Part shown: one piece after another, positions 9,369 through 44,718 of the stretch
Layout of the letters: each line of letters starts with the position of its first letter
How positions within the stretch are numbered: position 1 is the stretch's first letter
Notes under the pieces: generated by a model
The model's input: only the letters and a program-made list of their open reading frames with translations
The model's database searches: none
Told to the model about the DNA's origin: nothing
Source: Chryseobacterium contaminans
GTDB taxonomy: Bacteria; Bacteroidota; Bacteroidia; Flavobacteriales; Weeksellaceae
NCBI RefSeq assembly: GCF_001684955.1
Contig: NZ_MAYF01000024.1
Span: 1 to 64,000, forward strand
Direction of reading: 5' to 3'
Length of the DNA: 64,000 nucleotides
Program-made: the position numbers and the translations under genes

Positions 9369-9411
9369 TTGAAGACAAAAACACTAGAATAAAAATTTAA
9401 AACTGAAAAAA

Positions 9412-11481: not shown

Positions 11482-11971
11482 AATACACCCTCTGGCAGAT
11501 GTCCAGTCCGAAAATATTGGTACAGATACAATGATCTGGCAGTTTTGTGTAATTCTAAAAAATGCTAAAATTGGCAGCAATTGTAATATTAACTGCAATG
11601 TTTTTATAGAAAACGATGTTGTCATTGGAGATAATGTCACCATAAAACCTGGCGTTCAGGTATGGGACGGCGTTACTTTGGAAGACAATGTTTTTATTGG
11701 TCCTAATGTAACTTTTACTAATGATTTAATTCCACGCTCTAAGCAATATCCAATAGAATTTAGCAAAACGCTTGTGAGAAAAGGAGCTTCTATTGGAGCT
11801 AATGCCACTATTGTTGCTGGTAACACCATTGGAGAAAATGCTTTAATTGGAGCAGGAAGTGTAGTCACAAAAGATGTTCCTGCCAATACAGTTTGGTTTG
11901 GAAATCCGGCCAAACAAAGGGGAACGATTAATAATAACGGAGAAATATTATATACAAAAGCTAATGATTAA
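11471..11971 (+). CDS. Left-handed beta-helix acetyltransferase (likely dTDP-3-aminosugar N-acetyltransferase)
   Basis: The 166-residue protein is a hexapeptide-repeat (LbH) acyltransferase with repeats such as IGSNCN, IGDNVT, IGANAT and IGENAL, and the ending GNPAKQRG. Related enzymes (FdtC, QdtC, WlbB) acetylate the amino group of nucleotide-linked amino sugars with acetyl-CoA. Its position between the ketoisomerases and the aminotransferase supports acetylation of dTDP-Fuc3N or dTDP-Qui3N. It overlaps the ketoisomerase by 11 bases and the aminotransferase by 8 (ATGATTAA). Confidence 0.82.
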
Positions 11972-16701: not shown

Positions 16702-17095
16702 ACCGCAAATAATAGCTTTTAATAAAATTGGTTCTTCAGAGCTTGGTTATATTACCATTGCTGAAGAGCAAAAAAATGTACCTTTTGATATCCAGCGTGT
16801 TTACTGGACTTATTATACTCCACAAGACGTCATCCGAGGAGGCCACGCCCATAAAAAACTACAGCAGGTCATCTTTGCTGTATCCGGCGTTATTACCTTT
16901 AATACTGAAGATAAAGAAGGAAATAAGGAAACTTTTGTTTTAGACCATCCTACAAAAGGACTTTATCTTCCGGAACTGATCTGGAGAGATATAAAATTTT
17001 CCCATAGTGCAGTACTTCTATGTCTTGCCTCTGAACTCTATGACGAAAAAGATTATTTCAGAGATTTTGAAGAGTTTAAAAACTATGTCCCTTAA
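16688..17095 (+). CDS. FdtA/QdtA-type dTDP-sugar 3,4-ketoisomerase, copy 3
   Basis: A cupin of about 135 residues, homologous to the two at 10668 and 11059. It contains RVYWTYYTPQD, RGGHAHKKLQQVI with both histidines, and the ending YDEKDYFRDFEEF. I prefer the ATG at 16688 (MKKNKPQIIAF); an ATG at 16679 adds three residues. It overlaps the GT61 gene and is followed 33 bases later by the second aminotransferase, repeating the ketoisomerase-aminotransferase pairing. No second acetyltransferase accompanies it. Confidence 0.86.
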   Translation: MKKNKPQIIAFNKIGSSELGYITIAEEQKNVPFDIQRVYWTYYTPQDVIRGGHAHKKLQQVIFAVSGVITFNTEDKEGNKETFVLDHPTKGLYLPELIWRDIKFSHSAVLLCLASELYDEKDYFRDFEEFKNYVP

Positions 17096-17128
17096 TAGAA
17101 ACCGTGCTAACTTTTAATAAAAACAACA

Positions 17129-18229
17129 ATGATTAAATTTCTTGATTTACAAAAAGTAAACCTTAATTATCAACAAGAAATAGAAGACGCTTTATTACAG
17201 ACTTTCAGATCCGGATGGTATCTTCAGGGAGAAAAAAATAAGGGTTTTGAAGCCAATCTGGCACAATATATAGGGACAAAACACGCCATAGGTGTTGCTA
17301 ACGGGCTGGATGCACTCCGTCTTATTCTTCGTGGATATATTGAATTGGGTGTAATGAGTCCGGGTGATGAAATTATTGTACCTTCCAATACATATATTGC
17401 CTCTATATTAGCCGTTTCAGATAATGGTTTAGTTCCGGTATTGGTAGAACCCGAACTTAACACTTACAATATTGATATTTCTAAAATTGAAGAGAAAATC
17501 ACGTCAAAAACAAAAGGAATTCTTATTGTTCACCTTCAGGGAAGAGTTGTTTTTTCGGATCAGCTTAAAGAAATTGCAGAAAAACATAATTTAAAAATCA
17601 TTGAAGATAATGCCCAAGCCATCGGAGCAGAATGGAAAGGTCTGAAATCAGGAAATCTAGGAGATGCTGCCGGATTCAGTTTTTATCCAGGTAAAAATTT
17701 GGGTGCATTGGGTGATGCCGGTGCCGTAACTACAAACGATGATGACCTGGCACAAACCATCAGAGCTTTAGCAAACTATGGGTCTAACCAAAAATATGTG
17801 AACATTTATAAAGGTCTAAACTCAAGATTAGATGAGTTGCAGGCGGCGGTTTTGGATGTTAAACTAAAACATATTGACAAAGAGAACGAAACAAGAAGAG
17901 TTATCGCTAAAAAATTTATTGAAGAAATAAAAAATCCTGCTATCATTCTTCCTGAAAATCCTGAAAATGAAGCAGAGCATGTATGGCATGTTTTCGTGAT
18001 AAGAACTGCAAAAAGAGATGAACTTCAGGCTTATCTTACAGAAAAAGGAGTGCAAACAATTATTCACTACCCTATTCCTCCTCATCAACAACAGGCATAT
18101 AAAGAATGGAATGAACTTTCTTTTCCAATCAGTGAAAAAATGCATTCTGAAGTTCTTAGTCTTCCTATTTCTTCCGTTTTAGAAGAAGATGAAATCAATA
18201 CGATCATTAAAGCAGTAAATGAATTCTAG
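17129..18229 (+). CDS. DegT/DnrJ/EryC1 aminotransferase (FdtB/QdtB-like), copy 2
   Basis: A 366-residue PLP-dependent sugar aminotransferase with the PLP lysine Lys189 in [14 protein letters not shown] and Asp160 in [11 protein letters not shown]. It is nearly the same protein as the copy at 11964, with differences scattered mostly in the N-terminal 50 and C-terminal 100 residues. With the ketoisomerase just upstream it forms a second dTDP-3-aminosugar pair. It may make a second aminosugar or be a redundant duplicate. Confidence 0.9.
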
Positions 18230-27673: not shown

Positions 27674-28615
27674 ATGAAAATGAAAACCTCAGTAATCATT
27701 CCCGTATACAATGCAGAAAAATACCTTTCAAAAGCCGTAGAATCTGCTTTACAGCTTGATGAAGTTTATGAGATCGTTTTAGTAGAAGACCAATCACCGG
27801 ATAATGCACTTCAGGTATGCCGTGAACTGACTCAAAAATACAATAGAGTAAAGCTTTTTCAGCATCCGGACAAGGGAAATCATGGTGCAGGAGCCAGCAG
27901 AAACCTGGGAATTGAAAAAGCAACCGGAGAGTTTATTGCATTTCTGGATGCAGACGATTATTATTTACCTAACCGGTTTGAAGCCGAAAAAGAACTTTTC
28001 AGGGATCCGAAAGTAGACGGAGTTTTCAATGCTATTGGCACGGAATATTTAACCGAAAAAGGAAAAGAAGAATTTCAATCTAAGTTTAAAGAGATATCTT
28101 TGAGTACCGTTAACTATCCGGCAGAGGGCGAAGAAGTCTTTAAAGGACTCTTAAGTTTAACAACTAAAACTTTCGGTACTTCTTTTCATCTTAATTCACT
28201 TACCGTAAGAAGAGCTTCATTGGCGGCACATCATCTCCAATTCAATAAAGAACTTCGGGTACATCAGGATTCGGATTTTATCATCAAACTGTCTTATCAT
28301 TGTCATTTAAAAACAGGCAATATTACAGAAGCTGTTGCCATGAGGGGTATTCATGATGATAACAGAATCACTAAAATTATAAAATACTCTCCCCAATATA
28401 ACCAAAGGCAGTTTCTTTTATGGAAATCTCTGAACGAATGGGCTATTTCCAATCAGATCCCGCCAGAAGCCAGAAAAAGAATTTATTTGCTCTATAAATC
28501 GTTTGATCTTTCGCTAAAGAAAGGCCTCATTAAATACTGTACTATTGTATGGGAAACCCTTAAAAACCCTGAGATATTAAAAACTAAATACCGTTTCACT
28601 TACTACAAACGATGA
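27674..28615 (+). CDS. Glycosyltransferase family 2, tandem copy 1 of 4
   Basis: A 313-residue GT2 enzyme: TSVIIPVYNAEKYLSKAVES, VEDQSPDNAL, GNHGAGASRNLGIEKATGEF and FLDADDYYLPNRFEAE. HQDSDFIIKLSY marks the acceptor half. It is the first of four adjacent paralogs and overlaps copy 2 by 4 bases. Copies 1 and 2 form a closer pair (both have FNAIGTEYLT and GIHDDNRITKII or GMHDDNRITKII). Confidence 0.9.
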   Translation: MKMKTSVIIPVYNAEKYLSKAVESALQLDEVYEIVLVEDQSPDNALQVCRELTQKYNRVKLFQHPDKGNHGAGASRNLGIEKATGEFIAFLDADDYYLPNRFEAEKELFRDPKVDGVFNAIGTEYLTEKGKEEFQSKFKEISLSTVNYPAEGEEVFKGLLSLTTKTFGTSFHLNSLTVRRASLAAHHLQFNKELRVHQDSDFIIKLSYHCHLKTGNITEAVAMRGIHDDNRITKIIKYSPQYNQRQFLLWKSLNEWAISNQIPPEARKRIYLLYKSFDLSLKKGLIKYCTIVWETLKNPEILKTKYRFTYYKR

Positions 28616-29556
28616 AAATGAAAATCTCTGTAATTATTCCTGTATACAATGCAGAAAAATATGTATCAAAAGCTGTAGAATCTGCCTTACAATTTGATGA
28701 AGTTTATGAAGTAATTCTGATAGAGGATCATTCTCCGGACAATGCTCTTCAGGCCTGCCGTGAACTGGTTCAAAAATATGATAAAGTAAAACTTTTCCAG
28801 CATCCGGACAAGGGAAATCATGGTGCCGGAGCCAGCAGAAACCTGGGAATTGAAAAGGCAACCGGAGATTTCATTGCATTTCTGGATGCTGATGATTATT
28901 TTCTGCCCAACAGATTTACAGCTGAAAAAGAGCTTTTTAAAGATCCAAAAATAGACGGCGTTTTTAATGCTATTGGCACGGAATATCTGACTAAAAAAGG
29001 TAAGGAAGAATTTATGTCTAATATTAATGACAGTGAACTTTTAACCGTTAACTATGCAGCAGAAGGGAAAGAAGTATTCAGAGGGCTATTGGGATTTACA
29101 CCTGAAGCTTTTGGTTCATTCTTCACATTGGATGCCCTTACCGTAAGAAGATACTCTCTTGAATCTAAAAAATTAAGATTTAATGAGGTTCTCCGCCTTC
29201 ATCAGGATTCAGATTTCATCATTAAACTTTCATACCTTTGTCATCTAAAATCCGGTATTATAGATATTCCTGTAGCAATGCGGGGTATGCATGATGACAA
29301 CAGAATTACTAAAATAATAAAGTATTCTCCACAGTATAACCAGCGGCAGTTTCTTTTCTGGAATTCCCTTTACGAATGGTCTAATACCTTATCCCTTGAA
29401 ACAGATATTGCACAACATATTTATCTTCAGAAAAAGGCATTTGAACTTTCTGGAAAGAAAGGTATTTCAAAAAAAATAGGATTGCTGGCTGCTATTTTAA
29501 AAAACCCGAATATCCTGAGAACAAAATACAGATTTACTTATTCTCATAAGGCTTGA
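28612..29556 (+). CDS. Glycosyltransferase family 2, tandem copy 2 of 4
   Basis: A 314-residue GT2 enzyme very similar to copy 1, with GNHGAGASRNLGIEKATGDF, FLDADDYFLPNRF and FNAIGTEYLTKKGKEEF. It overlaps copy 1 by 4 bases, so translation may be coupled. Differences from copy 1 cluster in the middle and C-terminal region, where the acceptor is expected to bind. Confidence 0.9.
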   Translation: MKMKISVIIPVYNAEKYVSKAVESALQFDEVYEVILIEDHSPDNALQACRELVQKYDKVKLFQHPDKGNHGAGASRNLGIEKATGDFIAFLDADDYFLPNRFTAEKELFKDPKIDGVFNAIGTEYLTKKGKEEFMSNINDSELLTVNYAAEGKEVFRGLLGFTPEAFGSFFTLDALTVRRYSLESKKLRFNEVLRLHQDSDFIIKLSYLCHLKSGIIDIPVAMRGMHDDNRITKIIKYSPQYNQRQFLFWNSLYEWSNTLSLETDIAQHIYLQKKAFELSGKKGISKKIGLLAAILKNPNILRTKYRFTYSHKA

Positions 29557-29887
29557 TAATTTATTTTGCATTTTTCTTTTGTGACTATACTTTTAAATGG
29601 AAAGACAGTCACTTTTAGCTTTCTTAGTCAAAACCGTTTGTTTTTGTACTTATCTCACCGTTTTGTGGGGAAATTTTCTGAGGAAAATAAGGCTATAGAG
29701 TAACCTAGATCATCTCACATTATAAAAAAAACAGCATTGGAATTGCTCTGATTGTACTTCTGTGTTATTTTATAGAAAAAAACGCCCTTCATTTTTAAAA
29801 GTAAAATTAAAAGCTTAAATTTCCAATTCAAAATGGTACTAATAAAACGCAATTGTAATTCTAAATTTATTGTAAAAAGGAGAAAAA
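29557..29887 (+). other. AT-rich intergenic region between GT2 copies 2 and 3
   Basis: No gene is visible in these 331 bases. A weak inverted repeat GTGACT/AGTCAC spans 29580-29612 with a long loop. The last bases carry AAGGAG five bases before the next ATG, a Shine-Dalgarno-like sequence that is rare in this window. Confidence 0.4.
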
Positions 29888-30832
29888 ATGAGGATCTCAG
29901 TAGTTATTCCCGTTTATAATGCAGAAAAGTATGTTTCCCAGGCAGTAGAGTCTGTTCTTCAGTTTGATGAAGTACACGAAATTATTCTGGTTGAAGATAA
30001 ATCCCCTGACAATGCATTGCAGATATGTCAGCAGCTTGCCGAAAAACATGAAAGAGTAAAGCTTTTCCAGCATCCGGACAAGAAGAACCATGGAGCTGGC
30101 CCAAGTAGGAATTTGGGAATTGAAAAATCAACCGGTGACTTTGTTGCTTTTTTGGATGCAGACGACTATTTTCTACCCAACAGATTCGATGCTGAAAAAG
30201 AGTTATTTAAAGATCCAAAAGTAGAAGGCGTTTACGGAGCTCTTGGAGTGCATTATTATTCCGCAAAAGCAAAAGAACAATATTATCAATTGTTTGGTGA
30301 CAGACTGACTACAGTTTATAAAAAATATGATCCTAAAGATGTTTTCCCTGGACAGCTCCATATGCTGGGAACTTTTGGGCTCTTCAGTATTGATACTTTA
30401 ACAATACGTAGGGAAGCTTTAATGAGCAAAGTAAAACCTCTTTTTAAACCTCATTTAAGACTTCATGAAGACACAGAATTTCTGTTTCGCCTTTCTTATT
30501 ATCTCGATCTTTATCCCGGAATCCTGGATGAAGCTATAGCGATAAGAGGAGTACATGAAGATAACAGAATTACAAAGGTAGACCTCCGCGTCATAGATCC
30601 TTCCGTTTCCCGCGCTATACTGTGGAAAGAAGTTGACCTTTGGTCCCAAACTGAAAGCGACATTTCCGAGGAGGTAAAGATTCACATCAAAAGGATGCAC
30701 AGGAGCTTTGAAATCGCTAAAGCACCTCTGTTGAAAAAGTGGGGAATGATTATTAAATATTTCTTTACCGATTACAAAAGCATAAGGTCCGGTTTATACA
30801 ATATCAATTTCCGGCATTCATTGATTTCATAA
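29888..30832 (+). CDS. Glycosyltransferase family 2, tandem copy 3 of 4
   Basis: A 314-residue GT2 enzyme: ISVVIPVYNAEKYVSQAVES, VEDKSPDNAL, NHGAGPSRNLGIEKSTGDF, FLDADDYFLPNRFDAEKE. Copies 3 and 4 form a close pair, sharing VEGVYGALGVHYY, LFGDRLTTVYK and FGLFSIDTLTIRR-type segments that copies 1 and 2 lack. The start is fixed by AAGGAG at 29877-29882 just upstream. Confidence 0.9.
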   Translation: MRISVVIPVYNAEKYVSQAVESVLQFDEVHEIILVEDKSPDNALQICQQLAEKHERVKLFQHPDKKNHGAGPSRNLGIEKSTGDFVAFLDADDYFLPNRFDAEKELFKDPKVEGVYGALGVHYYSAKAKEQYYQLFGDRLTTVYKKYDPKDVFPGQLHMLGTFGLFSIDTLTIRREALMSKVKPLFKPHLRLHEDTEFLFRLSYYLDLYPGILDEAIAIRGVHEDNRITKVDLRVIDPSVSRAILWKEVDLWSQTESDISEEVKIHIKRMHRSFEIAKAPLLKKWGMIIKYFFTDYKSIRSGLYNINFRHSLIS

Positions 30833-31067
30833 AATAATAACCATAGATTTACAAAACTTAGATTAAAAAACAAAAATCAAAAAACTTTGCAAATTCTTAA
30901 TTGAAGCCATCCGAAAGCATTTCGTTCGGCAGACTTTTTGAATCAGAATCTTAATAAAAAACACCTCTTTGTTTTTATGTAAAAAAATTAGAGATAAGTC
31001 TTTATAATTAACTATCTTGCAACGCTTTTAGCCACAAATGATATAAAAAAGTTAAGTAAACAAAAAA

Positions 31068-32009
31068 ATGAAAATTTCAGTAATTATTCCCGTTTACAAT
31101 GCCGAAAAATATGTTTCCCAGGCAGTGGAATCTGCTCTGCAGTTTGATGAAGTTTGCGAAGTTATTCTGGTGGAAGATAAATCGCCGGATCATGCATTAG
31201 AGGTATGTAAACAGCTTGCCAAAAAACATGAAAGAGTAAAACTTTATCAGCATCCGGATAAAGAGAATCATGGTGCAGGCCCAACAAGAAATTTGGGAAT
31301 AGAAAAGTCCAGCGGAGATTTCATTGCATTCCTGGATGCGGATGATTATTTTCTTCCTAACAGATTTGATGCTGAAAAAGAGCTTTTCAAAAACCCTGAA
31401 GTAGAAGGCGTATATGGAGCCCTTGGGGTACACTATTATACTGAAAAAGCAAAAGAACAATATTATTCTTTATTCGGAGACCGGTTAACCACCGTTTATA
31501 AAAGACATGAACCCAAAGATGTTTTTCCGGGGCAAATCTATATGCTTGGAAGTTTCGGGCTCTTCAGTATTGATGCTTTAACGATTCGTAGGGACTCTTT
31601 GATGCAAAAAATGGATTCCTTATTTAAATCCAGTCTAAGGCTGCATCAGGATACGGAATTTTTATTCAGGCTTTCTTATTATCTTAATCTTTACCCTGGA
31701 ATTTTAGATAAAGCTATTGCAGTAAGAGGTGTACATGAAGACAACAGAATTACATTGGTTGATTCAAAAAAGGTGAATCCGGCAACTACCCGTGTCCTGT
31801 TATGGAAAGAAGTGAATACCTGGGCTGAAAATGAGACTACTCTTTCTGAACATATAAAGCTTCATATCAAAAGAATGTATCGCAGTTTTCAGATTGCCAA
31901 TGCTCCTAGTTCAAAAAAATGGGGAATGATCCTGAAATATTTTCTAACAGACTATAAAAGCATCCGGTCTGGAATTTATAACATTAACTTTAGGAATAAT
32001 CTGTTCTGA
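31068..32009 (+). CDS. Glycosyltransferase family 2, tandem copy 4 of 4
   Basis: A 313-residue GT2 enzyme, the near twin of copy 3 (ISVIIPVYNAEKYVSQAVES, NHGAGPTRNLGIEKSSGDF, VEGVYGALGVHYYTEKAKE). It follows an AT-rich gap of 235 bases without a clear signal. Its stop is 7 bases from the end of the convergent SGNH gene; no terminator is seen between them. Confidence 0.9.
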   Translation: MKISVIIPVYNAEKYVSQAVESALQFDEVCEVILVEDKSPDHALEVCKQLAKKHERVKLYQHPDKENHGAGPTRNLGIEKSSGDFIAFLDADDYFLPNRFDAEKELFKNPEVEGVYGALGVHYYTEKAKEQYYSLFGDRLTTVYKRHEPKDVFPGQIYMLGSFGLFSIDALTIRRDSLMQKMDSLFKSSLRLHQDTEFLFRLSYYLNLYPGILDKAIAVRGVHEDNRITLVDSKKVNPATTRVLLWKEVNTWAENETTLSEHIKLHIKRMYRSFQIANAPSSKKWGMILKYFLTDYKSIRSGIYNINFRNNLF

Positions 32010-32016
32010 TCTTATT

Positions 32017-32934
32017 TTATTTTCCTCTATTTGCAATAATAGAATCCGCTATCTGAGAAGAAATTCTTTTACTTGATTCCTTATATAAATGATTGCCGTC
32101 TGTATAATCATATTCAGCATAATTTCCTGAGAAATCAAAAAATTTCACATTCTGTTTCCTTGCTATATCTCTTAGCAGTTTGTTAAAATGAGGATATTTG
32201 TTATTCTCTATGGCACTAAGACTTTTTGATGTAGGAAGGCGTACGAGATAGACTTTGCCTTTTGTCCTTAAGTAATTAATCATTTCATTAATGGCTTTAA
32301 GACGCTCTGGTGACAGCTCTACTGTATTGGCTAAGTCTTTGTAAAACTGTTCCTTTTTATGGGTTCTCACCGCAACAGAATCTTTATGCATATTGATTGT
32401 TACTTCCAGCCATCCATCATCATGCAGGAAAGTATTGGACCTTCCGGCTTCTTCCCTTTCGGTATAAATTTTAAACCAACTTCTTGTATAATGCTTCAAA
32501 AGATATTCATAATTAGGAGACCTGTCATAAAAGTACATATCATTCAACGGAGAATGTTCTTCCGGAAAATCTTTTTCTTTTTTTATTAGTTTATTTAATG
32601 ATAGGTTCCATGGGCTTACCGTCAATATAAAAATTCCATTTTTAGTTTCCTGATCTAATTTTCTTTTAAGGGCTTTAAAATAAACCTGTCCATAGGGTGA
32701 TTCTACGATATTCAAAGAAAAATTATCAAAATCCACAGAAAGTTTGTTTTTCAAAATTCCGGGAACCACTCCCTGAGAGCCACGGGAATCTCCCAGTATC
32801 ATATTCTTTGGCTTTTTAACCGCAAAATGCATATAGTTATCATCCGTATTACCATCTGCATAAGATCCAAGGATGGCCAGCACTATAAGCACTGCTACAA
32901 AATAAGGGACTATTTTAATTAAAAACTTCTTCAT
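32017..32934 (-). CDS. SGNH-like (DltD/AlgJ-type) accessory acyltransferase, module 2
   Basis: A 305-residue protein with one N-terminal membrane segment (FLIKIVPYFVAVLIVLAIL), then a periplasmic SGNH-like domain. The nucleophile serine is in LGDSRGSQG, and the C-terminal DGNHLYKES supplies the Asp and His of the triad. Proteins of this type (DltD, AlgJ, AlgX, PatB) work with MBOAT proteins in O-acylation of extracellular polymers. The start is the ATG at 32934, 1 base after the MBOAT stop; a longer frame back to 33015 would overlap the MBOAT gene and is not needed. Confidence 0.78.
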   Translation of the reverse strand: MKKFLIKIVPYFVAVLIVLAILGSYADGNTDDNYMHFAVKKPKNMILGDSRGSQGVVPGILKNKLSVDFDNFSLNIVESPYGQVYFKALKRKLDQETKNGIFILTVSPWNLSLNKLIKKEKDFPEEHSPLNDMYFYDRSPNYEYLLKHYTRSWFKIYTEREEAGRSNTFLHDDGWLEVTINMHKDSVAVRTHKKEQFYKDLANTVELSPERLKAINEMINYLRTKGKVYLVRLPTSKSLSAIENNKYPHFNKLLRDIARKQNVKFFDFSGNYAEYDYTDGNHLYKESSKRISSQIADSIIANRGK

Positions 32935-32935
32935 G

Positions 32936-34369
32936 CTAAAACTGAAAATAAATAAATTCATTATTCCCGAAGTTGGCATAACGGAGAATGATATACATAA
33001 CAACCCAATAGACAATACGTCTTATCCAAGGCTGGAATCTTTTAATTTCCAATCCGTGGAATCTTTCTCGGTTAATCCATTCTACGGTCATCATAAACCC
33101 AATCAGGGCCAATACTTTTACCGGTAATGTATGCGGAATAGAAAGCAGTTCACGGCTAAAAATTCTACCGATATAGTGAATGGCCTGAGTTACAGATTCA
33201 GCTCTGAAAAAAATCCATGCAACGCAGGTAATCACAAAAGTTATCAGAATTTGTAAGCATTCCCTAAAGGATGGCAGAAACTTCCCCTGCCCCGCTACTT
33301 CCATATTCTGGCGGTTTTTATTCATGATGAGCAAAGGCATAAAATACAACGCATTAAGGCCTCCCCAAACTATAAACGTCCAATTCGCGCCATGCCAGAA
33401 CCCAGACACCAGGAAAATAATAAATGTATTTCTTATTTTCATAGAAAGCCCACCTTTACTTCCTCCCAACGGAATGTACAGATAATCTCTGAACCATGAA
33501 GAAAGCGAAATATGCCATCTTCTCCAGAATTCTGCAATATCCCTGGAGAAATAAGGAAATGCAAAGTTTTTCAGTAATTCTATTCCGAACAATCTTGAAA
33601 CCCCTAATGCAATATCTGAATATCCGGAGAAATCTCCATAGATCTGAAAAGCAAACAATACAGCCCCTAACACAAGATTTCCGGGACTTTCTGTTTGATA
33701 GTTGTTAAATATTTCATTCACCAGCGGTGCACAGTTATCAGCAATAACCATTTTTTTGAAAAATCCCCAAAGAATTTGTCTCATTCCATCCACCGCCTGC
33801 TCATAATTGAATACCCTTTCCCGTTGAATCTGAGGAAGAAGATGAGTTGCTCTTTCTATGGGACCAGCAACAAGAAGCGGAAAATAACTTACAAAGACAG
33901 CATAGTCTGTAAAGCTTCTCTCCGCTTTTATTCTTTTCTTATAGACGTCTATCACATAAGACAGTCCATGGAATGTATAAAACGAAATTCCCACCGGAAG
34001 TATAACATTAAGCAGCCAGACATTTACTTTGAATCCAAAGCCACTAAGAAGGTCTGCAAAACTATCAACAAAGAAATTATAATATTTAAAGAAACCAAGA
34101 AAGCCAAGATTGATGACAATGCTCAGAGTAAGCCAGAATTTAGCTTCCCGGTTCGTCTTACTGTTCTCTATTTTAATTCCTGATACATAATCAAGACCAA
34201 TGGAAAACATCAGTAAAAAAAGAAATCTCCAATCCCAACAGGCATAAAAATAGAAACTGGCTAGCAACAGCAACCTGTTCTGTTCCTGAAATTTCCTGTT
34301 GAAAACAAACCAATAGAGACAAAATACTATTGGTAAAAAAATAAGAAATCCTATTGAATTGAATAACAT
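32936..34369 (-). CDS. MBOAT family O-acyltransferase, module 2
   Basis: A 477-residue polytopic membrane protein of the AlgI/DltB type. Characteristic segments are YFYACWDWRF near the N-terminus, PVGISFYTFHGLSYVIDVY, GYSDIALGVSRLFGI, FWRRWHISLSSWFRDYLYIP and the catalytic histidine region SGFWHGANW. It is followed at once by its SGNH partner. It moves an acyl group to an acceptor on the periplasmic side. It is a paralog of the MBOAT at 35638. Confidence 0.93.
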   Translation of the reverse strand: MLFNSIGFLIFLPIVFCLYWFVFNRKFQEQNRLLLLASFYFYACWDWRFLFLLMFSIGLDYVSGIKIENSKTNREAKFWLTLSIVINLGFLGFFKYYNFFVDSFADLLSGFGFKVNVWLLNVILPVGISFYTFHGLSYVIDVYKKRIKAERSFTDYAVFVSYFPLLVAGPIERATHLLPQIQRERVFNYEQAVDGMRQILWGFFKKMVIADNCAPLVNEIFNNYQTESPGNLVLGAVLFAFQIYGDFSGYSDIALGVSRLFGIELLKNFAFPYFSRDIAEFWRRWHISLSSWFRDYLYIPLGGSKGGLSMKIRNTFIIFLVSGFWHGANWTFIVWGGLNALYFMPLLIMNKNRQNMEVAGQGKFLPSFRECLQILITFVITCVAWIFFRAESVTQAIHYIGRIFSRELLSIPHTLPVKVLALIGFMMTVEWINRERFHGLEIKRFQPWIRRIVYWVVMYIILRYANFGNNEFIYFQF

Positions 34370-34644: not shown

Positions 34645-35583
34645 TCAATGTGTTAAAATATCTTTGGCTACTACTGCTGAAAATGCTTCAACTGATTTTT
34701 CATCCAGATGAACCTCATCCAGCCATTGATACTGATTATCCATTTCATTGTAATTGATATAGGAAACTTTTGTTTTAGAGGCAACATGCTTCATGCGGCG
34801 ATCAAAATCCGGGAATGCGTTATTTTCTATTGAGTAAGGCTCTTTATTAACGGGCATTCTTACAATAATTACTTTCCCATGTTTACTCAAAAACTCAATT
34901 GTTTTTTCAAGATACAGAATCCTGTTTTCAGATGCCTTCAGTCCATTTACTCTTTCCTGAAGCAGCCTCATATTTTTCTTGTTGGACATCTTCAGTTTTT
35001 CCGGAGCTGTTTTTTTTATAATTTTCAGATAATATCTTCCGTTGTCTAAAATAACAGGAACTCCAACTATGTTTTTAGGAGGTATTATTTTTTTATTCAG
35101 TTCATGGGTAATGGAAGGTTCATAACTTTCCAGCAGATATTCAATATTGGGGTTGACAGCAACCCTTGAAGTTTTGGCAACACTCTTATCATTTTCAATA
35201 TAAAACTCCGGATTGTCCGGTTTGTTTTTATCTACCATTAAAGCTGTAGGTTCAACGGTAACAATAAAAACACCATCCTTAGTTTCAGGTTTAATTTTTT
35301 TCTCAATAGATTCCAGATATTTGGGCCCATAAGGAGAATGTGCCCAGGTAAAGGAATAGTTATACAAACGTATATTGGGAAATTTGGGATGTAAAATACT
35401 GTCAATAATAGCAGGCTCCATCAACGCAGCTCTGGAGCTCCCCAGTATAAAAGAATTCTGCTGGGGAGAGGTAAACCTTCTATAAAAATCATCTGAATTT
35501 TTTGCTAAAAAATAGACAGCGTATCCTACTACCAATAAAGGCAGTATAGAAAACAGTATCAATTTTAAAAGTGATTTTTTCAT
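34645..35583 (-). CDS. SGNH-like (DltD/AlgJ-type) accessory acyltransferase, module 1
   Basis: A 312-residue protein with an N-terminal membrane anchor (LLKLILFSILPLLVVGYAVY) and an SGNH-like periplasmic domain. The nucleophile motif is FILGSSRAALMEP, and DEVHLDEKS near the C-terminus holds the Asp-x-x-His pair. It has the same architecture as the protein at 32017 but is clearly diverged from it. It lies 54 bases downstream of the module 1 MBOAT, as DltD accompanies DltB. Confidence 0.78.
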   Translation of the reverse strand: MKKSLLKLILFSILPLLVVGYAVYFLAKNSDDFYRRFTSPQQNSFILGSSRAALMEPAIIDSILHPKFPNIRLYNYSFTWAHSPYGPKYLESIEKKIKPETKDGVFIVTVEPTALMVDKNKPDNPEFYIENDKSVAKTSRVAVNPNIEYLLESYEPSITHELNKKIIPPKNIVGVPVILDNGRYYLKIIKKTAPEKLKMSNKKNMRLLQERVNGLKASENRILYLEKTIEFLSKHGKVIIVRMPVNKEPYSIENNAFPDFDRRMKHVASKTKVSYINYNEMDNQYQWLDEVHLDEKSVEAFSAVVAKDILTH

Positions 35584-35637
35584 AATTCAAATTCTGCTTG
35601 TTCTTACAGAGTTCTTTCTATTATTTCTGATAGTAGG

Positions 35638-37074
35638 CTAAAACATGGCATATATAAATCCTTTAGGAGCAATATAAAACAGGAAAACCAGAAACACCAG
35701 CACATAATAAAAACCCCATCGTAAAACGATATTTTTCTCTACAAGAATTTCTTTAATAGCATATTCTTTATCCCTATTCCCCCACTCCAGTAATATCATA
35801 AATAAACTGACAGCTATGATTTCTTTCTGAATAGGAAAATTAGGTAACTGGAAAAATGACAATGAGAAGATTCCCTGATAATATTTCGTAGCCATTTCCA
35901 TATCTTTTGAAAAGAAAAGGACCATCAATAAAGTGAAAAGAATAAATGTTACGGGGATATTTTTCATTTCCTCCTTTGTTGGAATGAAGTTGTTAGACGT
36001 TTTTATCTTCTTATTCATTTTCCCGCTCAAAATCAATGGAATAAACATAATCCCACTTACCAGGCCATGTACAATATAATGCCATTCGGCACCATGCCAG
36101 AATCCTACAACCAGGAAATTAATGATGATGGCCATTATCAATCCATATTTATCATAATCTCTGAAGTGAATAGATAAAGGGGTAAAAACATATTCTGTTA
36201 GCCAGGAGGTTAAAGAAATATGCCATCTTCTCCAATAATCGGCAACATTCTGTGCAAACAACGGATAATTAAAGTTAGGCTGAATTTTAATCCCCAGCAG
36301 CTTAGAAATCCCAATAGCCATATCTGTATATCCTGAGAAGTCTGAATATAACTGGATAAAATACAATACAGCCCCTGCCAATAAAGCACTTCCGTTTAAG
36401 GTATGATAGGAGTCAAAGAGCTGAGAGGTAATTCCGGCAATATTATCTGCTACCACCAGTTTTTTGAAAAGCCCCCATAAAATCTGCTTCAAACCATCTG
36501 TAAACTGAGGGGAAGAAAATTCTCTTTTTATTTTCAGGTTTTTCAAAAATGGAGTTGCCCTGTCAATAGGTCCGGCAATAATACATGGGAAAAAGGCAAT
36601 AAAGACGGCATAATCCAGTAAAGATGGAATTTCCTTCAGCTTATTATTCCTGATATCCAATAAGTAACTTATCATTCTGAATGAATAGAAGCTTATTCCT
36701 ATCGGGAAAATAATCTTCAGCAATCCCAATTGATCTTTAACTCCGAAAAGATTCAGGAAATCATTAAAGTTCTCAATGAAAAAATTAAAATACTTAAAAT
36801 ACAGAAGCTGAACCAGGACCATAAAAACTCCTGATCTCAGCCACAACACTTTAGCTTTCTCCTTTTCGGCAGATTTTATTTTGTTTCCTACAAAATAGGT
36901 AACCCCTGTAGTAACAATAAGTAGTGATAAAAATTCCCAACTCCAGCTGCTGTAAAAGACATAGCTTCCTATGAGCAGAATTATATTTTGAATCTTCGAG
37001 GTTTTTCCGCAGAGATAATAAATAAAATAAAGCGCAATAAAGAAAAATATAAAGCTGTAGGAATTAAGAAGCAT
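35638..37074 (-). CDS. MBOAT family O-acyltransferase, module 1
   Basis: A 478-residue polytopic membrane protein of the DltB/AlgI type: YVFYSSWSWEFLSLL, PIGISFYSFRMISYLLDI, GYTDMAIGISKLLGI, YWRRWHISLTSWLTEYVFTP and the catalytic region VGFWHGAEWHY. It starts 5 bases after the carrier protein gene, as expected if it receives its acyl group from that carrier. DltB takes D-alanine from DltC in the same way. The acyl group here is inferred to be glyceryl. Confidence 0.93.
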   Translation of the reverse strand: MLLNSYSFIFFFIALYFIYYLCGKTSKIQNIILLIGSYVFYSSWSWEFLSLLIVTTGVTYFVGNKIKSAEKEKAKVLWLRSGVFMVLVQLLYFKYFNFFIENFNDFLNLFGVKDQLGLLKIIFPIGISFYSFRMISYLLDIRNNKLKEIPSLLDYAVFIAFFPCIIAGPIDRATPFLKNLKIKREFSSPQFTDGLKQILWGLFKKLVVADNIAGITSQLFDSYHTLNGSALLAGAVLYFIQLYSDFSGYTDMAIGISKLLGIKIQPNFNYPLFAQNVADYWRRWHISLTSWLTEYVFTPLSIHFRDYDKYGLIMAIIINFLVVGFWHGAEWHYIVHGLVSGIMFIPLILSGKMNKKIKTSNNFIPTKEEMKNIPVTFILFTLLMVLFFSKDMEMATKYYQGIFSLSFFQLPNFPIQKEIIAVSLFMILLEWGNRDKEYAIKEILVEKNIVLRWGFYYVLVFLVFLFYIAPKGFIYAMF

Positions 37075-37079
37075 ACAAC

Positions 37080-37316
37080 TTATTTTGAAGTTATAGAGTC
37101 TATCATTTCCCCTACATCATTCCAGCTTCTGATTTCCGATGAAGTAAAACGTATTCCAAATCCTTTCTCTACCGCTACAATTAATTGAATATGAGAAAGA
37201 GAATCCCATTCTTCAATATCTTCCGCTGTAGTTTCACGGGTGAGTACAATTTCATCATTATCCAGTTCTTCACGAAAAATACCAGTTAGTTTACTTAGAG
37301 TTTCATCATTATTCAT
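37080..37316 (-). CDS. Acyl carrier protein (partner of FkbH-like enzyme)
   Basis: A 78-residue carrier protein. EEWDSLSHIQLIV has the phosphopantetheine serine, Ser39, in the DSL motif, and the helices around it fit the ACP fold. It is between the FkbH-like gene (15 bases upstream) and the MBOAT gene (5 bases downstream), so it probably carries the group loaded by FkbH. It would need a phosphopantetheinyl transferase, which is not in this window. Confidence 0.9.
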   Translation of the reverse strand: MNNDETLSKLTGIFREELDNDEIVLTRETTAEDIEEWDSLSHIQLIVAVEKGFGIRFTSSEIRSWNDVGEMIDSITSK

Positions 37317-37331
37317 AATGTTTCAATGTGT

Positions 37332-39059
37332 TTATAGTTTGTTATTAATATATACGTTTTTATTTTTATAATCATCTACTGCCAATATCCACTTTTCATC
37401 CTGCCTGATAAATCCAAGCTTTTCATAGTGATCTGCAACCATTTGATTTTTAGTTGTAGGAATGTATTCTCCTACTATATATTTATATCCGTTATTTCTG
37501 GCAGTATCTACAATGGTATTCAGGGTGAAATCTTCCATTCCTCTTTTCAGGACACGACAGCTCATCAGCCATGTATCAATGAAAAGAGTTTCAGGATCCT
37601 TTTTTTCCATAACAATAACACAGATGAGCCCATTATCACCATATTTATCTTCTAAAGTAAAGGACATGGTAATATGATTATCTGAGTGTATTAAATGGTC
37701 TACATCCTGCTCACTATATCTTATTGTTCTAAGATTAAACTGATTGGAACGCTGCGTTAACTGAGATACCCTCGGCTTTGAAAAATTGTTGAAAGACTGA
37801 ACATCAGAAACCATATTCATGCTTTCAAGAAAATCTTCCACATTTGTAAAACTTTCCAGGGCAATGGCACGCTGTGCTTCAACCTGATATTGTTTGGTTC
37901 TTTCTGTATCATTCTCAGAAAAGCTGGCCGTTTCAAAAAGATTCAGGCTATATAAATATTCCAGATATTCGGCAGGATCTTCTGGAAGCTCTGGAACACA
38001 AACTTCCGGAAGATTTTCTCTTACGAGATTTCTTTCAAACGGATTATCATCTAGGAAAACCATAGAATCAAACCCTATATTTAAAATCTGCTGGATCTTT
38101 CTGATATTATCTGCTTTATTCTCCCAATTGGCTACAAATACCGCTATATCTTCCAGTTTAAGAACCATATCCGGATGTTTTTCAAAAGGCTCTTTGGCTT
38201 TATCTTCATCATTCTTACTGCAAACAGCCAGAATGATCCCTCTTTTTTGCAGAGCTTTTACCCAATATTGAAACTCTGTAAATGCTTTTCCAATTCCCAG
38301 GCTTCCAATTTGAATCTTTTCAAGGCCATCGTCACCAATAATTCCTCCCCATGTTGTATTATCCAGATCCAGAATTAGGCATTTCTTAAATTTCCCCTCC
38401 AAAGAAGAAATAATACTTACCATATGATGAGCAATAATAGGAAGCGCATCTAAAGAAAGAACCATTTCCGTATTGATATAAATATTGGGAGAAAACATAA
38501 AGTCCCGCCCCCATTTATTCTGAATGGAAACTAAATCAGCAATAAAAAAATTATCATTCTTAATGGCTAATTCTGCTGAGAGCAGGTAGTTCAGCTTATT
38601 TTGCTGAAAAACAAAGGAAGATTCTACTTTATTTGAGAAATTTCCAAAAACCTGATTGTTGATACCCGGAAAATTGCAATAAATCACTCTGCTTTTAGTC
38701 CTGCTTTGGATTGTATGATAAAGCTCAGCAATATAACTGATCTTATTGTCAGCAAAAACAGACTGCGAGTTATACGATTTATAATATTGCCCCAGCAGTT
38801 TGTGGGAGGATTCAAAAATAATGGTATAATCTGCATTAAACTCATAATATTCTGAAGAAGGATCCAGGATCTGGCGGGATATCTGCCCAAAATCCGCTTC
38901 GAAGATCTCCAGATGTATTCCCTCAGAAACAGCAGTTCCTTTTAAAGCAATATTTAAAAACTGGGTTGCAGTATCGCCTAGTAAGGCAACTTTTACAGTC
39001 TTTAATCCTTTAGATTCTTTACGAAGTTCTTTTTTAAGCTCCGAAAATGTTTTATACAT
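37332..39059 (-). CDS. FkbH-like protein (HAD-family carrier-protein loading enzyme)
   Basis: A 575-residue protein with the FkbH layout: an N-terminal SGNH-like part (VALLGDTATQF at 24-34), a HAD domain with the catalytic DLDNTTWGG (Asp231, Asp233), and a C-terminal GNAT-like part (YIVGEYIPTTKNQMV and HYEKLGF). FkbH enzymes studied in polyketide pathways take D-1,3-bisphosphoglycerate, remove phosphate and load a glyceryl group on an ACP. The ACP gene follows 15 bases later, then an MBOAT and an SGNH gene. That context points to glyceryl-ACP supply for polysaccharide acylation rather than polyketide synthesis. Confidence 0.9.
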   Translation of the reverse strand: MYKTFSELKKELRKESKGLKTVKVALLGDTATQFLNIALKGTAVSEGIHLEIFEADFGQISRQILDPSSEYYEFNADYTIIFESSHKLLGQYYKSYNSQSVFADNKISYIAELYHTIQSRTKSRVIYCNFPGINNQVFGNFSNKVESSFVFQQNKLNYLLSAELAIKNDNFFIADLVSIQNKWGRDFMFSPNIYINTEMVLSLDALPIIAHHMVSIISSLEGKFKKCLILDLDNTTWGGIIGDDGLEKIQIGSLGIGKAFTEFQYWVKALQKRGIILAVCSKNDEDKAKEPFEKHPDMVLKLEDIAVFVANWENKADNIRKIQQILNIGFDSMVFLDDNPFERNLVRENLPEVCVPELPEDPAEYLEYLYSLNLFETASFSENDTERTKQYQVEAQRAIALESFTNVEDFLESMNMVSDVQSFNNFSKPRVSQLTQRSNQFNLRTIRYSEQDVDHLIHSDNHITMSFTLEDKYGDNGLICVIVMEKKDPETLFIDTWLMSCRVLKRGMEDFTLNTIVDTARNNGYKYIVGEYIPTTKNQMVADHYEKLGFIRQDEKWILAVDDYKNKNVYINNKL

Positions 39060-39229: not shown

Positions 39230-40258
39230 TTATTTGATCTTCACCCTTTTCAGATAATCTCTTAATGGCTTCTCAATAAATTGATAAAACAGAATACAGG
39301 TGATGATAAGAACTACGATATAAATCCCAAATACAATATCAATGGAAAAATTATAATTCCCCCATTTTAAAACCTCTCTCAGAATGTAGAGAACAGGAAT
39401 ATGGGTAATATATACTGCATAGCTGGCCTCCCCTAAATATTCCAGAGGTTTCCATGAAAATATCCTCGTTATTGCTCCATTATTCCTGGATATTAAAATA
39501 ATGATAGGGATAAAGAGCAATGCCATCAAGCCATTATGATAGAACAGCGGAAGAAAAATCAAGGACAACAGCAAGAGTCCGAAAATAATAACTACCGGTA
39601 CATCATAATTCTTCTGACCTGAGTTTTTCATAAAATATAATCCTGCAAGATTTCCCACCAGGAATTCATTGATATGCATCAGTGGAAAATAGTACAGCAG
39701 CTCATGACTTTCCGTATGAGGCCCCTTATAATAAAATGAATCTGAATATAGACTACAAAATACCTGCGTTACAATCCAGATCAAAACAGTTATTACCCAA
39801 ATACTTTTATTTCCTTTAGAATAAAGATAATTATACAGCAAAGGAAACAACAGGTAAAAAAGAAACTCTACAGAAATAGACCAACCTGGAAAATTCAGAA
39901 TCATAGCCTCACCCGGAATCCAGCTCTGAAGCCCAAACAGATACAAAAATCCTTTATAGATACTGAAGTTGGAGTATCTGGTTACCAAATACAGCAAAAG
40001 CCCCAGTACATACAAGGGATAAATCCTTGCAAACCTGTTTTTATAATATTCAAAATACTCAATTTTATCTTTTTTGTGATAAGCCACAATCATAATAAAA
40101 CCTGAAAGAATGAAGAAGTAGCTCACTCCTACATTGGCATTCAGAAATATTTTTGAGATATAATCAATTTTATATAAAAACAGATCTTTATTGAAATGGG
40201 AGATGACAATGGCCATAGCCGCAAGAAATCTGGTAAATGTAATCTGACTTATTTTCAT
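39230..40258 (-). CDS. Acyltransferase family 3 (OafA/YrhL-like) membrane protein
   Basis: A 342-residue integral membrane O-acyltransferase. It begins ISQITFTRFLAAMAIVISHF with the family's TFxRFxAAxxVxxxHF pattern including the catalytic histidine. FFILSGFIM and NRFARIYPLY are further hallmarks, and FPGWSISVEFLFYLLFP follows. Such enzymes O-acetylate O-antigen or exopolysaccharide sugars across the membrane. It is the gene upstream of the FkbH operon on the same strand, separated by 170 bases. Confidence 0.92.
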   Translation of the reverse strand: MKISQITFTRFLAAMAIVISHFNKDLFLYKIDYISKIFLNANVGVSYFFILSGFIMIVAYHKKDKIEYFEYYKNRFARIYPLYVLGLLLYLVTRYSNFSIYKGFLYLFGLQSWIPGEAMILNFPGWSISVEFLFYLLFPLLYNYLYSKGNKSIWVITVLIWIVTQVFCSLYSDSFYYKGPHTESHELLYYFPLMHINEFLVGNLAGLYFMKNSGQKNYDVPVVIIFGLLLLSLIFLPLFYHNGLMALLFIPIIILISRNNGAITRIFSWKPLEYLGEASYAVYITHIPVLYILREVLKWGNYNFSIDIVFGIYIVVLIITCILFYQFIEKPLRDYLKRVKIK

Positions 40259-40404: not shown

Positions 40405-41175
40405 TTATTTAATAAAAACACCGATGTATTTTCCTTCATATTCTACTACAGTGGTCTCTATATTATTTTTTTCACAGAAATCCTGATATGAAGAATTATC
40501 ACCAATATCATCACTGATGAAAACTCCTCCCTTTTTCAAATGCTTGTAAAGCTCCTCATATGCCCATGTCCTTCCGTTATAGCTCTTATCAGAATCATAG
40601 TGAAGAACATCGAATACAGCATTTTCAGCAAAGATTTTTGGTAATGACTCCCTGTCTGCAAAGCGGAATAGCTTCCAATGGTTTTTAAGCGTTTCGGGAA
40701 CCACATATCCTACATACTGATCTCCATCCTGAGCCAGATAAGGCATATCTGAACTGTATAGTGTCCCGTTTCTTTTTACCAATGATAAAAGGGAAGCCAA
40801 TGAAGACCATCCGTAAGCGACTCCTGTTTCCACAACATACTGAGCATTAGCAAACTCACAGGCATAGTAAATCAGTTCCAAAGCACCGGGACCTCCCATT
40901 TTCACGGGACATTGCTTTTCTCTCTGAGCAGCATTCGCTAAAATTTCCTGATAATCTTTACGAAAAGTATCTATTTCAAGCCCAAAAAGCTTTGAAACGG
41001 CTTCTTTCTGTGATACTGCCCTTTCGGCTGCCCAGGAATTTGTTTTTTCTTTTCCTTTAAAAGCATTTCCTCTGTTAACGGTATTTTTAATAATTTTCCG
41101 GCCCAATTCCGGATAAAGATCGGGTCTTTTCAAATACCCGATAAATGTTTTGAGAACTCTTGTTATTTCACCCAC
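40405..41175 (-). CDS. Class I SAM-dependent methyltransferase
   Basis: A 256-residue protein with a Rossmann methyltransferase core. YVVETGVAYGWSSLA is the SAM-binding motif I, LYSSDMPYL motif II and VFDVLHYDSDKSYNG the post-core acidic strand, with LKKGGVFISDDI following. It resembles methyltransferase-24-type enzymes that methylate sugars. In an ABC-exported O-antigen, a terminal methyl can be the chain cap read by the Wzt C-terminal domain, a possible role here by inference. It has its own candidate promoter. Confidence 0.8.
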   Translation of the reverse strand: MGEITRVLKTFIGYLKRPDLYPELGRKIIKNTVNRGNAFKGKEKTNSWAAERAVSQKEAVSKLFGLEIDTFRKDYQEILANAAQREKQCPVKMGGPGALELIYYACEFANAQYVVETGVAYGWSSLASLLSLVKRNGTLYSSDMPYLAQDGDQYVGYVVPETLKNHWKLFRFADRESLPKIFAENAVFDVLHYDSDKSYNGRTWAYEELYKHLKKGGVFISDDIGDNSSYQDFCEKNNIETTVVEYEGKYIGVFIK

Positions 41176-43456: not shown

Positions 43457-43475
43457 TGATTATATAACCATCATT
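43452..43475. terminator. Weak hairpin between convergent genes
   Basis: AATGATG and CATCATT form a 7-base stem with a 10-base loop at the end of the GT4 gene, overlapping its stop codon. It has no strong T run. It might act in both directions between the convergent genes. Confidence 0.25.
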
Positions 43476-43710
43476 AATCATCTTCAAAATTTTCTAACCC
43501 AATAATATTCATCAGATCGGAAACCGTTTCCATATTTTTAAACTGGTCCGGATCAAGCTGCTGATTAAAATTTTCGTCTACAAAAGCTATGACGGAGAGT
43601 AAGCTTATAGAATCATAGTTTTCCAGATCCTTTAGCCTAGTGTTTCGGTGCAATGCTTGTTTTTCTTCTAATTCTTCTTGTAGTTTTTCTAAAAAAACGG
43701 AAGTTTTCAT
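43474..43710 (-). CDS. Acyl carrier protein (partner of KAS III-like enzyme)
   Basis: A 78-residue acidic carrier protein with the phosphopantetheine serine, Ser34, in ENYDSISLLSVIAFV. It differs clearly from the ACP at 37080 in its flanking helices. It lies 33 bases downstream of a KAS III-like gene on the same strand, so the pair probably makes and carries a dedicated acyl group for the glycan. Confidence 0.82.
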   Translation of the reverse strand: MKTSVFLEKLQEELEEKQALHRNTRLKDLENYDSISLLSVIAFVDENFNQQLDPDQFKNMETVSDLMNIIGLENFEDD

Positions 43711-43743
43711 ATATTTTAAATTTTGTGATTGATGATTTAAAAA

Positions 43744-44718
43744 TTAAAAGTCTATTATGGTTGCTCCCCAGGAATATCCTACCCCAAAACCAGCCAGTAA
43801 AATCCTATTTCCTTTTTGCAACAAACCTTTATCCATCATATTTTTCAGGGCAATCGGAATGGTTGCAGAGACGGTATTTCCTGTTGTTTCCATATCAATA
43901 TAGAATTTTTCGGTGGGAATTTTTGTTTTACGTCTCAGATAATTCAGCATAAAAGAATTTGCCTGGTGAAAAACAAAATAATCAATATCATCCATGGTAA
44001 GGCTATTTTCCTCCATGGTTTCTTTAATTAATCCTGGGATCTTTTCTATGGTAAAATTAAAAATTTCAGGACCGTTCATATAAAGATTCTCAGGGCCAAA
44101 CTCATGATTTGGATTTAAGGTAAAATCTGTCCTGAAGCCTCCTTTTTTTACCATCAGATTCTCAGCTCCACTGCCATCAGTTCCAAGACAAAATTTATAA
44201 TCCTCTACATCTGAATCTTTCTCAACAATTACGGAGGCTGAAGCATCTCCAAATAAGCAGCGGTTTCCTTTATCTTTGGGATGAATGTGTTTGGTATATG
44301 TTTCTGAAGTAATTAACAAAATACTGCTGCCAATTCCTGAAGCAATTAATCCTTTAGCAAAGGCCAGCCCATACACAAACCCGGAACATCCTAAATTGAA
44401 ATCTACAGCACCTATATTTTTTCTCAGCCCAAGCTTATCCTGTAAGATACAAGCCGTAGTGGGCAGAAAATAGTCCGGACTTTGAGTGCAGAAAAGAATA
44501 AAATCTATTGTATTCCTGTCATATTCCTCAAAAATCTTTTCTGATGATTGAATAGCCAGATCCAACACTGTCTCATTTTCTGAAGAAATATGACGCTGCA
44601 CGATCCCCACTTTTTCCCGGATTCTTTCAGAACTCCATTCCGGAAATTCCTTTTCCAAATCCCTATTTGTGAGAATCAATTCAGGCAAATAATATTCTAT
44701 TTTAGAAATTCTTATCAT
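43744..44718 (-). CDS. 3-oxoacyl-ACP synthase III (FabH-like)
   Basis: A 324-residue thiolase-fold condensing enzyme with the KAS III triad Cys111 (LGCSGFVYGL), His251 (VFHQAN) and Asn281 (TTGNTVSATIP). It joins an acyl-CoA starter with malonyl-ACP. FabH has a housekeeping role, but this copy sits in a polysaccharide locus with its own ACP. In Flavobacterium psychrophilum O-antigens, sugars carry hydroxylated short acyl groups, and similar genes are found in such loci; that role is inferred here. A candidate promoter box lies just upstream. Confidence 0.9.
   Translation of the reverse strand: MIRISKIEYYLPELILTNRDLEKEFPEWSSERIREKVGIVQRHISSENETVLDLAIQSSEKIFEEYDRNTIDFILFCTQSPDYFLPTTACILQDKLGLRKNIGAVDFNLGCSGFVYGLAFAKGLIASGIGSSILLITSETYTKHIHPKDKGNRCLFGDASASVIVEKDSDVEDYKFCLGTDGSGAENLMVKKGGFRTDFTLNPNHEFGPENLYMNGPEIFNFTIEKIPGLIKETMEENSLTMDDIDYFVFHQANSFMLNYLRRKTKIPTEKFYIDMETTGNTVSATIPIALKNMMDKGLLQKGNRILLAGFGVGYSWGATIIDF

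Follow-up and report, generated by a model that had tools for sequence, protein, structure and literature searches.

The operon described here lies in a 64,000-nucleotide stretch of Chryseobacterium contaminans DNA (contig NZ_MAYF01000024.1, positions 1 to 64,000; hereafter the window) and comprises four genes, FkbH, an acyl carrier protein (ACP), MBOAT1, and SGNH1. Judged by its sequence and by analogy with known systems, it probably encodes a carrier-protein-fed transmembrane acylation system that would place a glyceryl group on an extracytoplasmic hydroxyl, most likely that of the surrounding cluster's polysaccharide. A preliminary description had reported four consecutive minus-strand genes for an FkbH-like enzyme, an ACP, an MBOAT, and an SGNH-like protein. 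Profile searches and a structure model of SGNH1 bore this out, and all four genes were present with the motifs given for them. They run head to tail on the minus strand (34645-39059), separated by gaps of 15, 5, and 54 bases, with the following features:

37332..39059, minus strand: FkbH-type loader, 575 amino acids, with FkbH_N, HAD, and GNAT-like C-terminal domains
37080..37316, minus strand: ACP, FkbH-dedicated, 78 amino acids, EEWDSL motif, phosphopantetheine Ser39 at 37200-37202
35638..37074, minus strand: MBOAT1, predicted carrier-dependent type, 478 amino acids, GFWHG motif, catalytic His327 at 36094-36096
36145..36195, minus strand: MBOAT1 segment aligned with helix HC of DltB, approximately residues 294-310, EYVFTPLSIHFRDYDKY; PLGGS in carrier-free MBOATs
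35641..35658, minus strand: putative C-terminal acyl-shuttle hexapeptide FIYAMF of MBOAT1, with Tyr475
34645..35583, minus strand: SGNH1, predicted membrane-anchored SGNH acyltransferase, 312 amino acids, GSSR with Ser50, DEVH with Asp289/His292, one N-terminal transmembrane helix

The loader was assigned by profile (FkbH_N, 3.7e-69; TIGR01686, 312.8 bits against a cut-off of 146.65), and its HAD motif DLDNTTWGG covers residues 231-239, with Asp231 at 38367-38369. We compared it with the FkbH of a methoxymalonyl-type operon from Streptomyces canus, which also encodes 3-hydroxyacyl-CoA and acyl-CoA dehydrogenases, and with those of ketoacyl-ACP synthase III (KAS III)/tetronate-type operons from Streptomyces, Methylosinus, and Pseudalkalibacillus. 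The window protein and these polyketide-type FkbHs had residues D231, D233, T235, S281, K315, D337, D338, C501, R502, and R506 in common. Cys501 (37557-37559), located in the C-terminal domain, was invariant in the alignment with other FkbHs, and we infer that it is the acyl site. The N-terminal and HAD parts matched BF1531 from Bacteroides fragilis (PDB 3SLR; 59% identity in the fold match), a close FkbH homologue that is solved for these parts and is an uncharacterised structural-genomics protein; the C-terminal part has a GNAT-like fold. In polyketide and nonribosomal peptide synthetase (NRPS) pathways, loading of a glyceryl group from 1,3-bisphosphoglycerate by FkbH is accepted (PMC7489565; PMC8949500). 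Because of this family chemistry and the conserved residues, we propose that FkbH would dephosphorylate 1,3-bisphosphoglycerate from glycolysis at its HAD centre and transfer the glyceryl group as a thioester to the phosphopantetheine of ACP, probably via Cys501. ACP itself exceeded the profile cut-off (PP-binding, 2.9e-5), and three phosphopantetheinyl transferase genes are available for its activation in the host genome.

FkbH relatives were scanned in bacterial genomes regardless of their neighbours, which gave 80 loci; after loci from two genome samples were added, the annotated set numbered 92, with a few genomes represented twice (L015 and L036, for example). Seventy loci with at least 6 kb downstream were considered adequate. 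A co-directional ACP gene was present within 3 kb of FkbH at 84 of the 92 loci, supporting the view that ACP is a dedicated carrier fed by FkbH, and a co-directional MBOAT gene within 5 kb at 49 of the 70 adequate loci (33 of 54 outside Weeksellaceae). The FkbH loci belonged to Bacteroidota, Clostridia (Bacillota), Treponema (Spirochaetota), Verrucomicrobiota, Omnitrophota, and Desulfovibrio; loci with the MBOAT beside FkbH were found in Bacteroidota, Bacillota, Spirochaetota, and other phyla. The composition is widespread, and tailoring genes are an optional part of it. Since the host genome contains a single FkbH and only two MBOATs, both within the window, and since the arrangement recurs across phyla, a chance association is excluded.

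Plasmid-borne examples varied in gene order, which was ACP-FkbH-MBOAT-hypothetical-VOC in Rhodobacteraceae records and VOC-MBOAT-second gene-ACP-FkbH on pSymB of Sinorhizobium meliloti. Capsule export genes, annotated as RkpR and an ABC transporter, lie about 5 kb away from the S. meliloti operon. Its gene between MBOAT and ACP is annotated as a TonB-dependent receptor; with a single hydrophobic stretch at the N-terminus and the motifs GGST and DPGH, the product looks by sequence like an SGNH protein. In the record of strain 1021 (L151, 7614-9676) the FkbH frame is broken into two overlapping frames. It is in one piece in other strains, including the 2011 record, and the split may reflect either a genuine frameshift or an error in the sequence.

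Among 150 genomes of the host family, six had an FkbH with a full score, and exactly these six, and no others, had an MBOAT of the MBOAT1 type (at least 47% identity). An ACP was found near the MBOAT in all six, and beside none of the 24 examined MBOATs from FkbH-less genomes. In a tree of 105 MBOATs, MBOAT1 fell inside a clade of 44 members (SH-aLRT 100), 42 of which were scored as ACP-linked; of the remaining two, L034 was a gene-call artefact in which ACP overlaps the FkbH call, and L040 has its ACP in the same operon. The second MBOAT of the window, MBOAT2, grouped with those of FkbH-less genomes, the other large group of the tree. MBOAT2 and its partner are neighbours that would stand outside the carrier route:

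32936..34369, minus strand: MBOAT2, PLGGS type without carrier, C-terminus FIYFQF
32017..32955, minus strand: SGNH2, partner of MBOAT2

MBOAT1 was recognised by profile (MBOAT, 4.5e-20), and His327 of its WHG motif was invariant across the MBOAT alignment. Two features of its sequence bear on how an acyl group could be taken up and moved. In PatA, the acetyl group is borne on the tyrosine of a C-terminal FxYxxF motif, and in Dlt this motif sits on a separate protein, DltX (PMC12148441). FxYxxF was present in 75 of 79 complete MBOATs; YIYAQF in three others brought strict and near motifs to 78 of 79, and the remaining one, L092, had LMYGNF. The second feature is the segment equivalent to helix HC of DltB, which seats DltC through Met302, Val305, Ile306, and Met309 (PMC11035591; equivalent residues in PMC9338922). 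Its position, computed from the alignment, is after the WHxSL motif. All 24 MBOATs from FkbH-less genomes had PLGG[SN] at this docking segment, as did a Neisseria gonorrhoeae MBOAT, taken as PatA by its C-terminus FIYANF, and five other plasmid-borne MBOATs. The motif was missing from 57 of 58 scorable ACP-linked MBOATs (the MBOAT of L022 was not scorable and is outside this number), and a DltB-like protein from Bacillaceae had a hydrophobic-basic docking segment, FMRFVFLMKKKRW. Ten loci, among them the window, have one MBOAT that is ACP-linked and another that is not; in every case PLGG was absent from the former and present in the latter.

By its sequence, MBOAT1 is a hybrid of a PatA-type shuttle peptide and a non-PLGG segment at the DltC-docking helix. 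ACP is encoded beside it, and its helix-HC segment is non-PLGG, as in DltB; carrier docking at this site is a prediction. Because of PatA and Dlt, and with support from the sequence, we propose that glyceryl-ACP would dock on the cytoplasmic MBOAT1 helix equivalent to HC, and that His327 would then shift the acyl group to Tyr475 in FIYAMF of the same protein, on the outer side.

The presence of FkbH and ACP could also be explained if the pair supplied an N-acyltransferase in the cytoplasm, which would attach the glyceroyl group as an amide to an amino sugar of the Fuc3N, Qui3N, or Qui4N type, with MBOAT1 and SGNH1 acting as an ordinary acetyltransferase. Genes read from the sequence as FdtA-, FdtB-, and FdtC-like are present at 10668-13064 and 16679-18229, and such amides are known as 7-N-glyceroyl pseudaminic acid in Tannerella forsythia (PMC9912281) and D-glyceroyl-Qui4N in Pragia fontium (PMC10609480). 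Some FkbH-ACP pairs also occur without an MBOAT. However, the co-occurrence of MBOAT1 with FkbH is perfect in the family, and an N-acyltransferase leaves unexplained why MBOAT1 follows FkbH. In addition, the docking segment of MBOAT1 is of the carrier type, and that of MBOAT2 in the same window is of the acyl-CoA type. We regard amide formation, the chief alternative, as an unlikely explanation and favour carrier-fed export through MBOAT1.

SGNH1 gave no match to Pfam or other curated families above the cut-off. Its AlphaFold model, built from 30 window and locus sequences, had a pLDDT of 86.8 and showed an SGNH fold with one N-terminal helix (residues 2-28). The nearest solved structures were PatB (1.1e-5) and then DltD (3e-4). 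Gly48, Ser50, and His292 were invariant in the alignment and Asp289 nearly so. An adjoining, anchored SGNH protein with a catalytic triad is a feature of MBOAT-SGNH pairs, and SGNH1, by sequence and model, is predicted to be such a protein. Its Ser50 would accept the group from MBOAT1 and pass it to an extracytoplasmic hydroxyl, most likely that of the surrounding cluster's polysaccharide; we propose this acceptor because of the location of the operon. The cluster, as annotated from sequence, contains an ABC exporter (8520-10671), dTDP-sugar genes, and many glycosyltransferases. Glyceryl and lactyl substituents are known in exopolysaccharides (PMC4432689), and some glycans of Bacteroidota contain glyceroyl amides (PMC9912281). 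Together with the cluster setting, these examples make an ester on the cluster polysaccharide plausible.

It is a modest possibility that the carrier route is right and the acceptor is instead peptidoglycan, a lipid A core, a glycolipid, or a protein glycan. PatB, whose fold SGNH1 resembles most, acts on peptidoglycan, and an acceptor is unreadable from sequence. The position of the operon inside a glycosyltransferase and ABC-export cluster speaks for the polysaccharide, as does the S. meliloti counterpart near its capsule export genes.

Several observations weigh against a glyceryl transfer system of the proposed kind. The MBOAT of L088 is ACP-linked and is an exception to the PLGG rule. The correlation at the docking segment is partly due to shared ancestry, and an independent test was not significant, with the direction as expected: a tree built without the segment gave only seven independent contrasts, too small a number, of which on average three were as expected, 0.1 opposite, and four uninformative. 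Moreover, 21 of the 70 adequate FkbH loci had no co-directional MBOAT inside 5 kb, implying that FkbH-ACP also serves other ends. The model of complete FkbH had a low pTM of 0.47. Finally, it is from the neighbourhood only that we infer the acceptor, and the glyceryl identity of the acyl group is likewise deduced.

As a separate observation, in a Niveispirillum locus (L149, 6791-11271) the place of MBOAT-SGNH after FkbH-ACP is taken by genes for a WcbI-like putative polysaccharide acetyltransferase and an SDR. These genes may provide a different user for the loaded carrier.

The locus resembles Dlt (DltA-DltB-DltC-DltD-DltX), which D-alanylates teichoic acid, in combining a carrier, an MBOAT, and an SGNH protein and in having a non-PLGG segment at helix HC. 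It differs in its loader, which is FkbH rather than an adenylating ligase, in the fusion of the shuttle tyrosine to MBOAT, in the lack of DltX, and in its Gram-negative host without teichoic acid. We also considered whether it could be a true Dlt system, with D-alanine or another amino acid placed on ACP by an unlinked ligase. DltB is the best solved relative of MBOAT1 (5e-30), but MBOAT1 reached 179.8 bits with the DltB equivalog TIGR04091, for which the cut-off is 375. No match in the host genome exceeded the TIGR01734 cut-off for DltA, the top matches being NRPS domains, and no DltX (PF12459) was found in it, the shuttle motif being fused to MBOAT instead. With ACP also close to FkbH at nearly all loci, a true Dlt system is very improbable, and membership in Dlt was rejected. 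The preliminary description had proposed a Dlt-like system with FkbH in place of DltA. An FkbH-fed carrier serving a Dlt-like MBOAT/SGNH export is still the most likely arrangement, as the MBOAT1 type is found, within the family, only in genomes with FkbH and differs from carrier-independent MBOATs at the docking helix. However, the locus is not Dlt with one part swapped, given the missing DltX, the fused tyrosine, the DltB score below the cut-off, and an SGNH protein nearer to PatB.

With PatA-PatB, and also AlgI/AlgJ/AlgX and WssH/WssI, the locus shares an MBOAT with a C-terminal FxYxxF and an anchored SGNH transferase. PatA differs in using acetyl-CoA, in having PLGGS at the docking helix, and in lacking an ACP or loader gene; MBOAT2 is of the PatA kind. 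MBOAT/SGNH pathways other than Dlt are stated to operate without a carrier protein (PMC12148441), whereas this operon has a dedicated ACP and a loader and so departs from their carrier-free, acyl-CoA-dependent pattern. As it lacks DltA, DltX, and a DltB-level MBOAT score on the one hand and the carrier-free feature of the other members on the other, we regard it as a further, probably carrier-fed form of MBOAT-SGNH transmembrane acylation.

FkbH/FkbJ glycerate-loading modules (methoxymalonyl-ACP, tetronates, suomilide) also combine FkbH with a stand-alone ACP and have the same conserved residues, and some relatives resemble them further in adding methyltransferase, reductase, or dehydratase genes. 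In those modules the acyl group goes to a polyketide synthase, a tetronate KAS III, or an NRPS; here it would go to a membrane MBOAT in a surface-glycan setting. Gellan-type exopolysaccharides (PMC4432689) belong to the product class predicted here, polysaccharides bearing a glyceryl ester, although gellan carries L-glycerate, whereas FkbH acting without an epimerase would be expected to supply D-glyceryl. In the literature searched, no genes for loading or transfer were found to be linked to glyceryl esters of the gellan type. The authors of the preliminary description knew of no described system of this composition, and our search of the open-access literature agrees: it returned no FkbH plus MBOAT/SGNH system, including for capsule, gellan, and sphingan (subscription papers were outside the search). 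Where papers name FkbH together with MBOAT, they deal with suomilide/aeruginosin NRPS clusters, in which the MBOAT is assigned to the sugar.

Gene content varied among the 58 loci with a downstream MBOAT. Twenty-five were bare, which is the form found in the window, and 33 had tailoring genes: 13 had a MaoC-like dehydratase and an SDR, eight a VOC protein, five a VOC protein and an S-adenosylmethionine methyltransferase, and two split transketolase subunits with MaoC, the remainder being mixtures. This diversity suggests varied C3-derived acyl groups. On chemical grounds, dehydration of glyceryl-ACP may give an enol-pyruvyl group and its reduction a lactyl group, and the VOC protein might act like methylmalonyl-CoA epimerase and invert C2. 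The suomilide and varlaxin pathways methylate the glycerate that FkbH loads (PMC10143770), and in routes to methoxymalonyl-ACP it is both oxidised and methylated (PMC7489565); the literature search gave no usable statement on bryostatin-type lactate made by way of FkbH. At L061 and L060, the split transketolase subunits and the MaoC-like protein lie between FkbH and MBOAT, hinting that a branched acyl is made on the carrier. At L017, a single FkbH is accompanied by two ACPs and three MBOATs, with an ACP beside the MBOAT1-type gene and ACP-MaoC-SDR beside another, as expected if different acyl groups are passed to different transferases.

These related loci, with their MaoC and SDR, VOC, or methyltransferase genes and the cited precedents, also raise the question of whether the acyl group exported in C. 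contaminans is glyceryl, or a lactyl or O-methylglyceryl group, for example, produced by enzymes encoded elsewhere. In contrast to such loci, the window operon has the bare form, and the nearby methyltransferase gene (40405-41175) is also found in many FkbH-less genomes. We therefore consider a different exported group quite unlikely here and retain glyceryl. Whether the loci as a whole form a widespread modular family of carrier-programmed glycan acylation, with an FkbH loader, interchangeable tailoring genes, and a dedicated docking-segment MBOAT clade as exporter, is in our estimation evenly balanced. In the proposed system, the tailoring enzymes in relatives would first alter the ACP-bound group, giving, for example, lactyl by the MaoC-like dehydratase and the SDR reductase, the other enantiomer by the VOC/epimerase-like protein, O-methylglyceryl by the methyltransferase, and a branched acyl by the transketolase.

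MBOAT2 is 39% identical to MBOAT1, and the MBOAT2-SGNH2 pair (32017-34369) has no adjoining ACP. In FkbH-less relatives, MBOAT2 orthologues adjoin AT3 genes. Going by its sequence features, MBOAT2 is probably a separate acyl-CoA-using O-acyltransferase for O-acetylation. An AT3 acyltransferase gene is also present in the window (39230-40258); given the pairing of AT3 genes with MBOAT2 orthologues where FkbH is absent, it was ruled out as an FkbH-specific part. As a tailoring enzyme, the upstream methyltransferase (40405-41175) was set aside because 69 of the 150 family genomes have it, most of them lacking FkbH.

The window contains a second carrier protein with an adjoining KAS III gene (43474-44718), which, like the MBOAT2-SGNH2 pair and the AT3 gene, does not figure in the preliminary description. 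This second ACP is 25% identical to the first, and ACPs similar to it occur at a similar distance from FkbH in relatives, sometimes with an SDR. The pair may make a longer hydroxyacyl group, like that of dihydroxyhexanoyl-Qui4N in Flavobacterium psychrophilum (PMC10609480). At 27674-32009, four closely similar genes for family 2 glycosyltransferases follow one another, and FdtA-like (10668, 11059, and 16679) and FdtB-like (11874 and 17129) genes are duplicated; these repeats are signs of recent duplication in the cluster. Elsewhere in the host genome, contig C344 has an open frame of 14,747 codons (about 25900-68000), a giant NRPS gene with about twelve carrier domains and an equal number of adenylation domains.

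If the proposed system is correct, a carrier-fed branch of MBOAT-SGNH acylation in several phyla would mean that bacteria can attach more kinds of group to their envelope sugars, and glyceryl- and lactyl-type ester decorations would gain a candidate gene set. The contrast between PLGG and the docking-helix signature would also serve to predict whether the acyl donor of a given MBOAT is acyl-CoA or a carrier protein.

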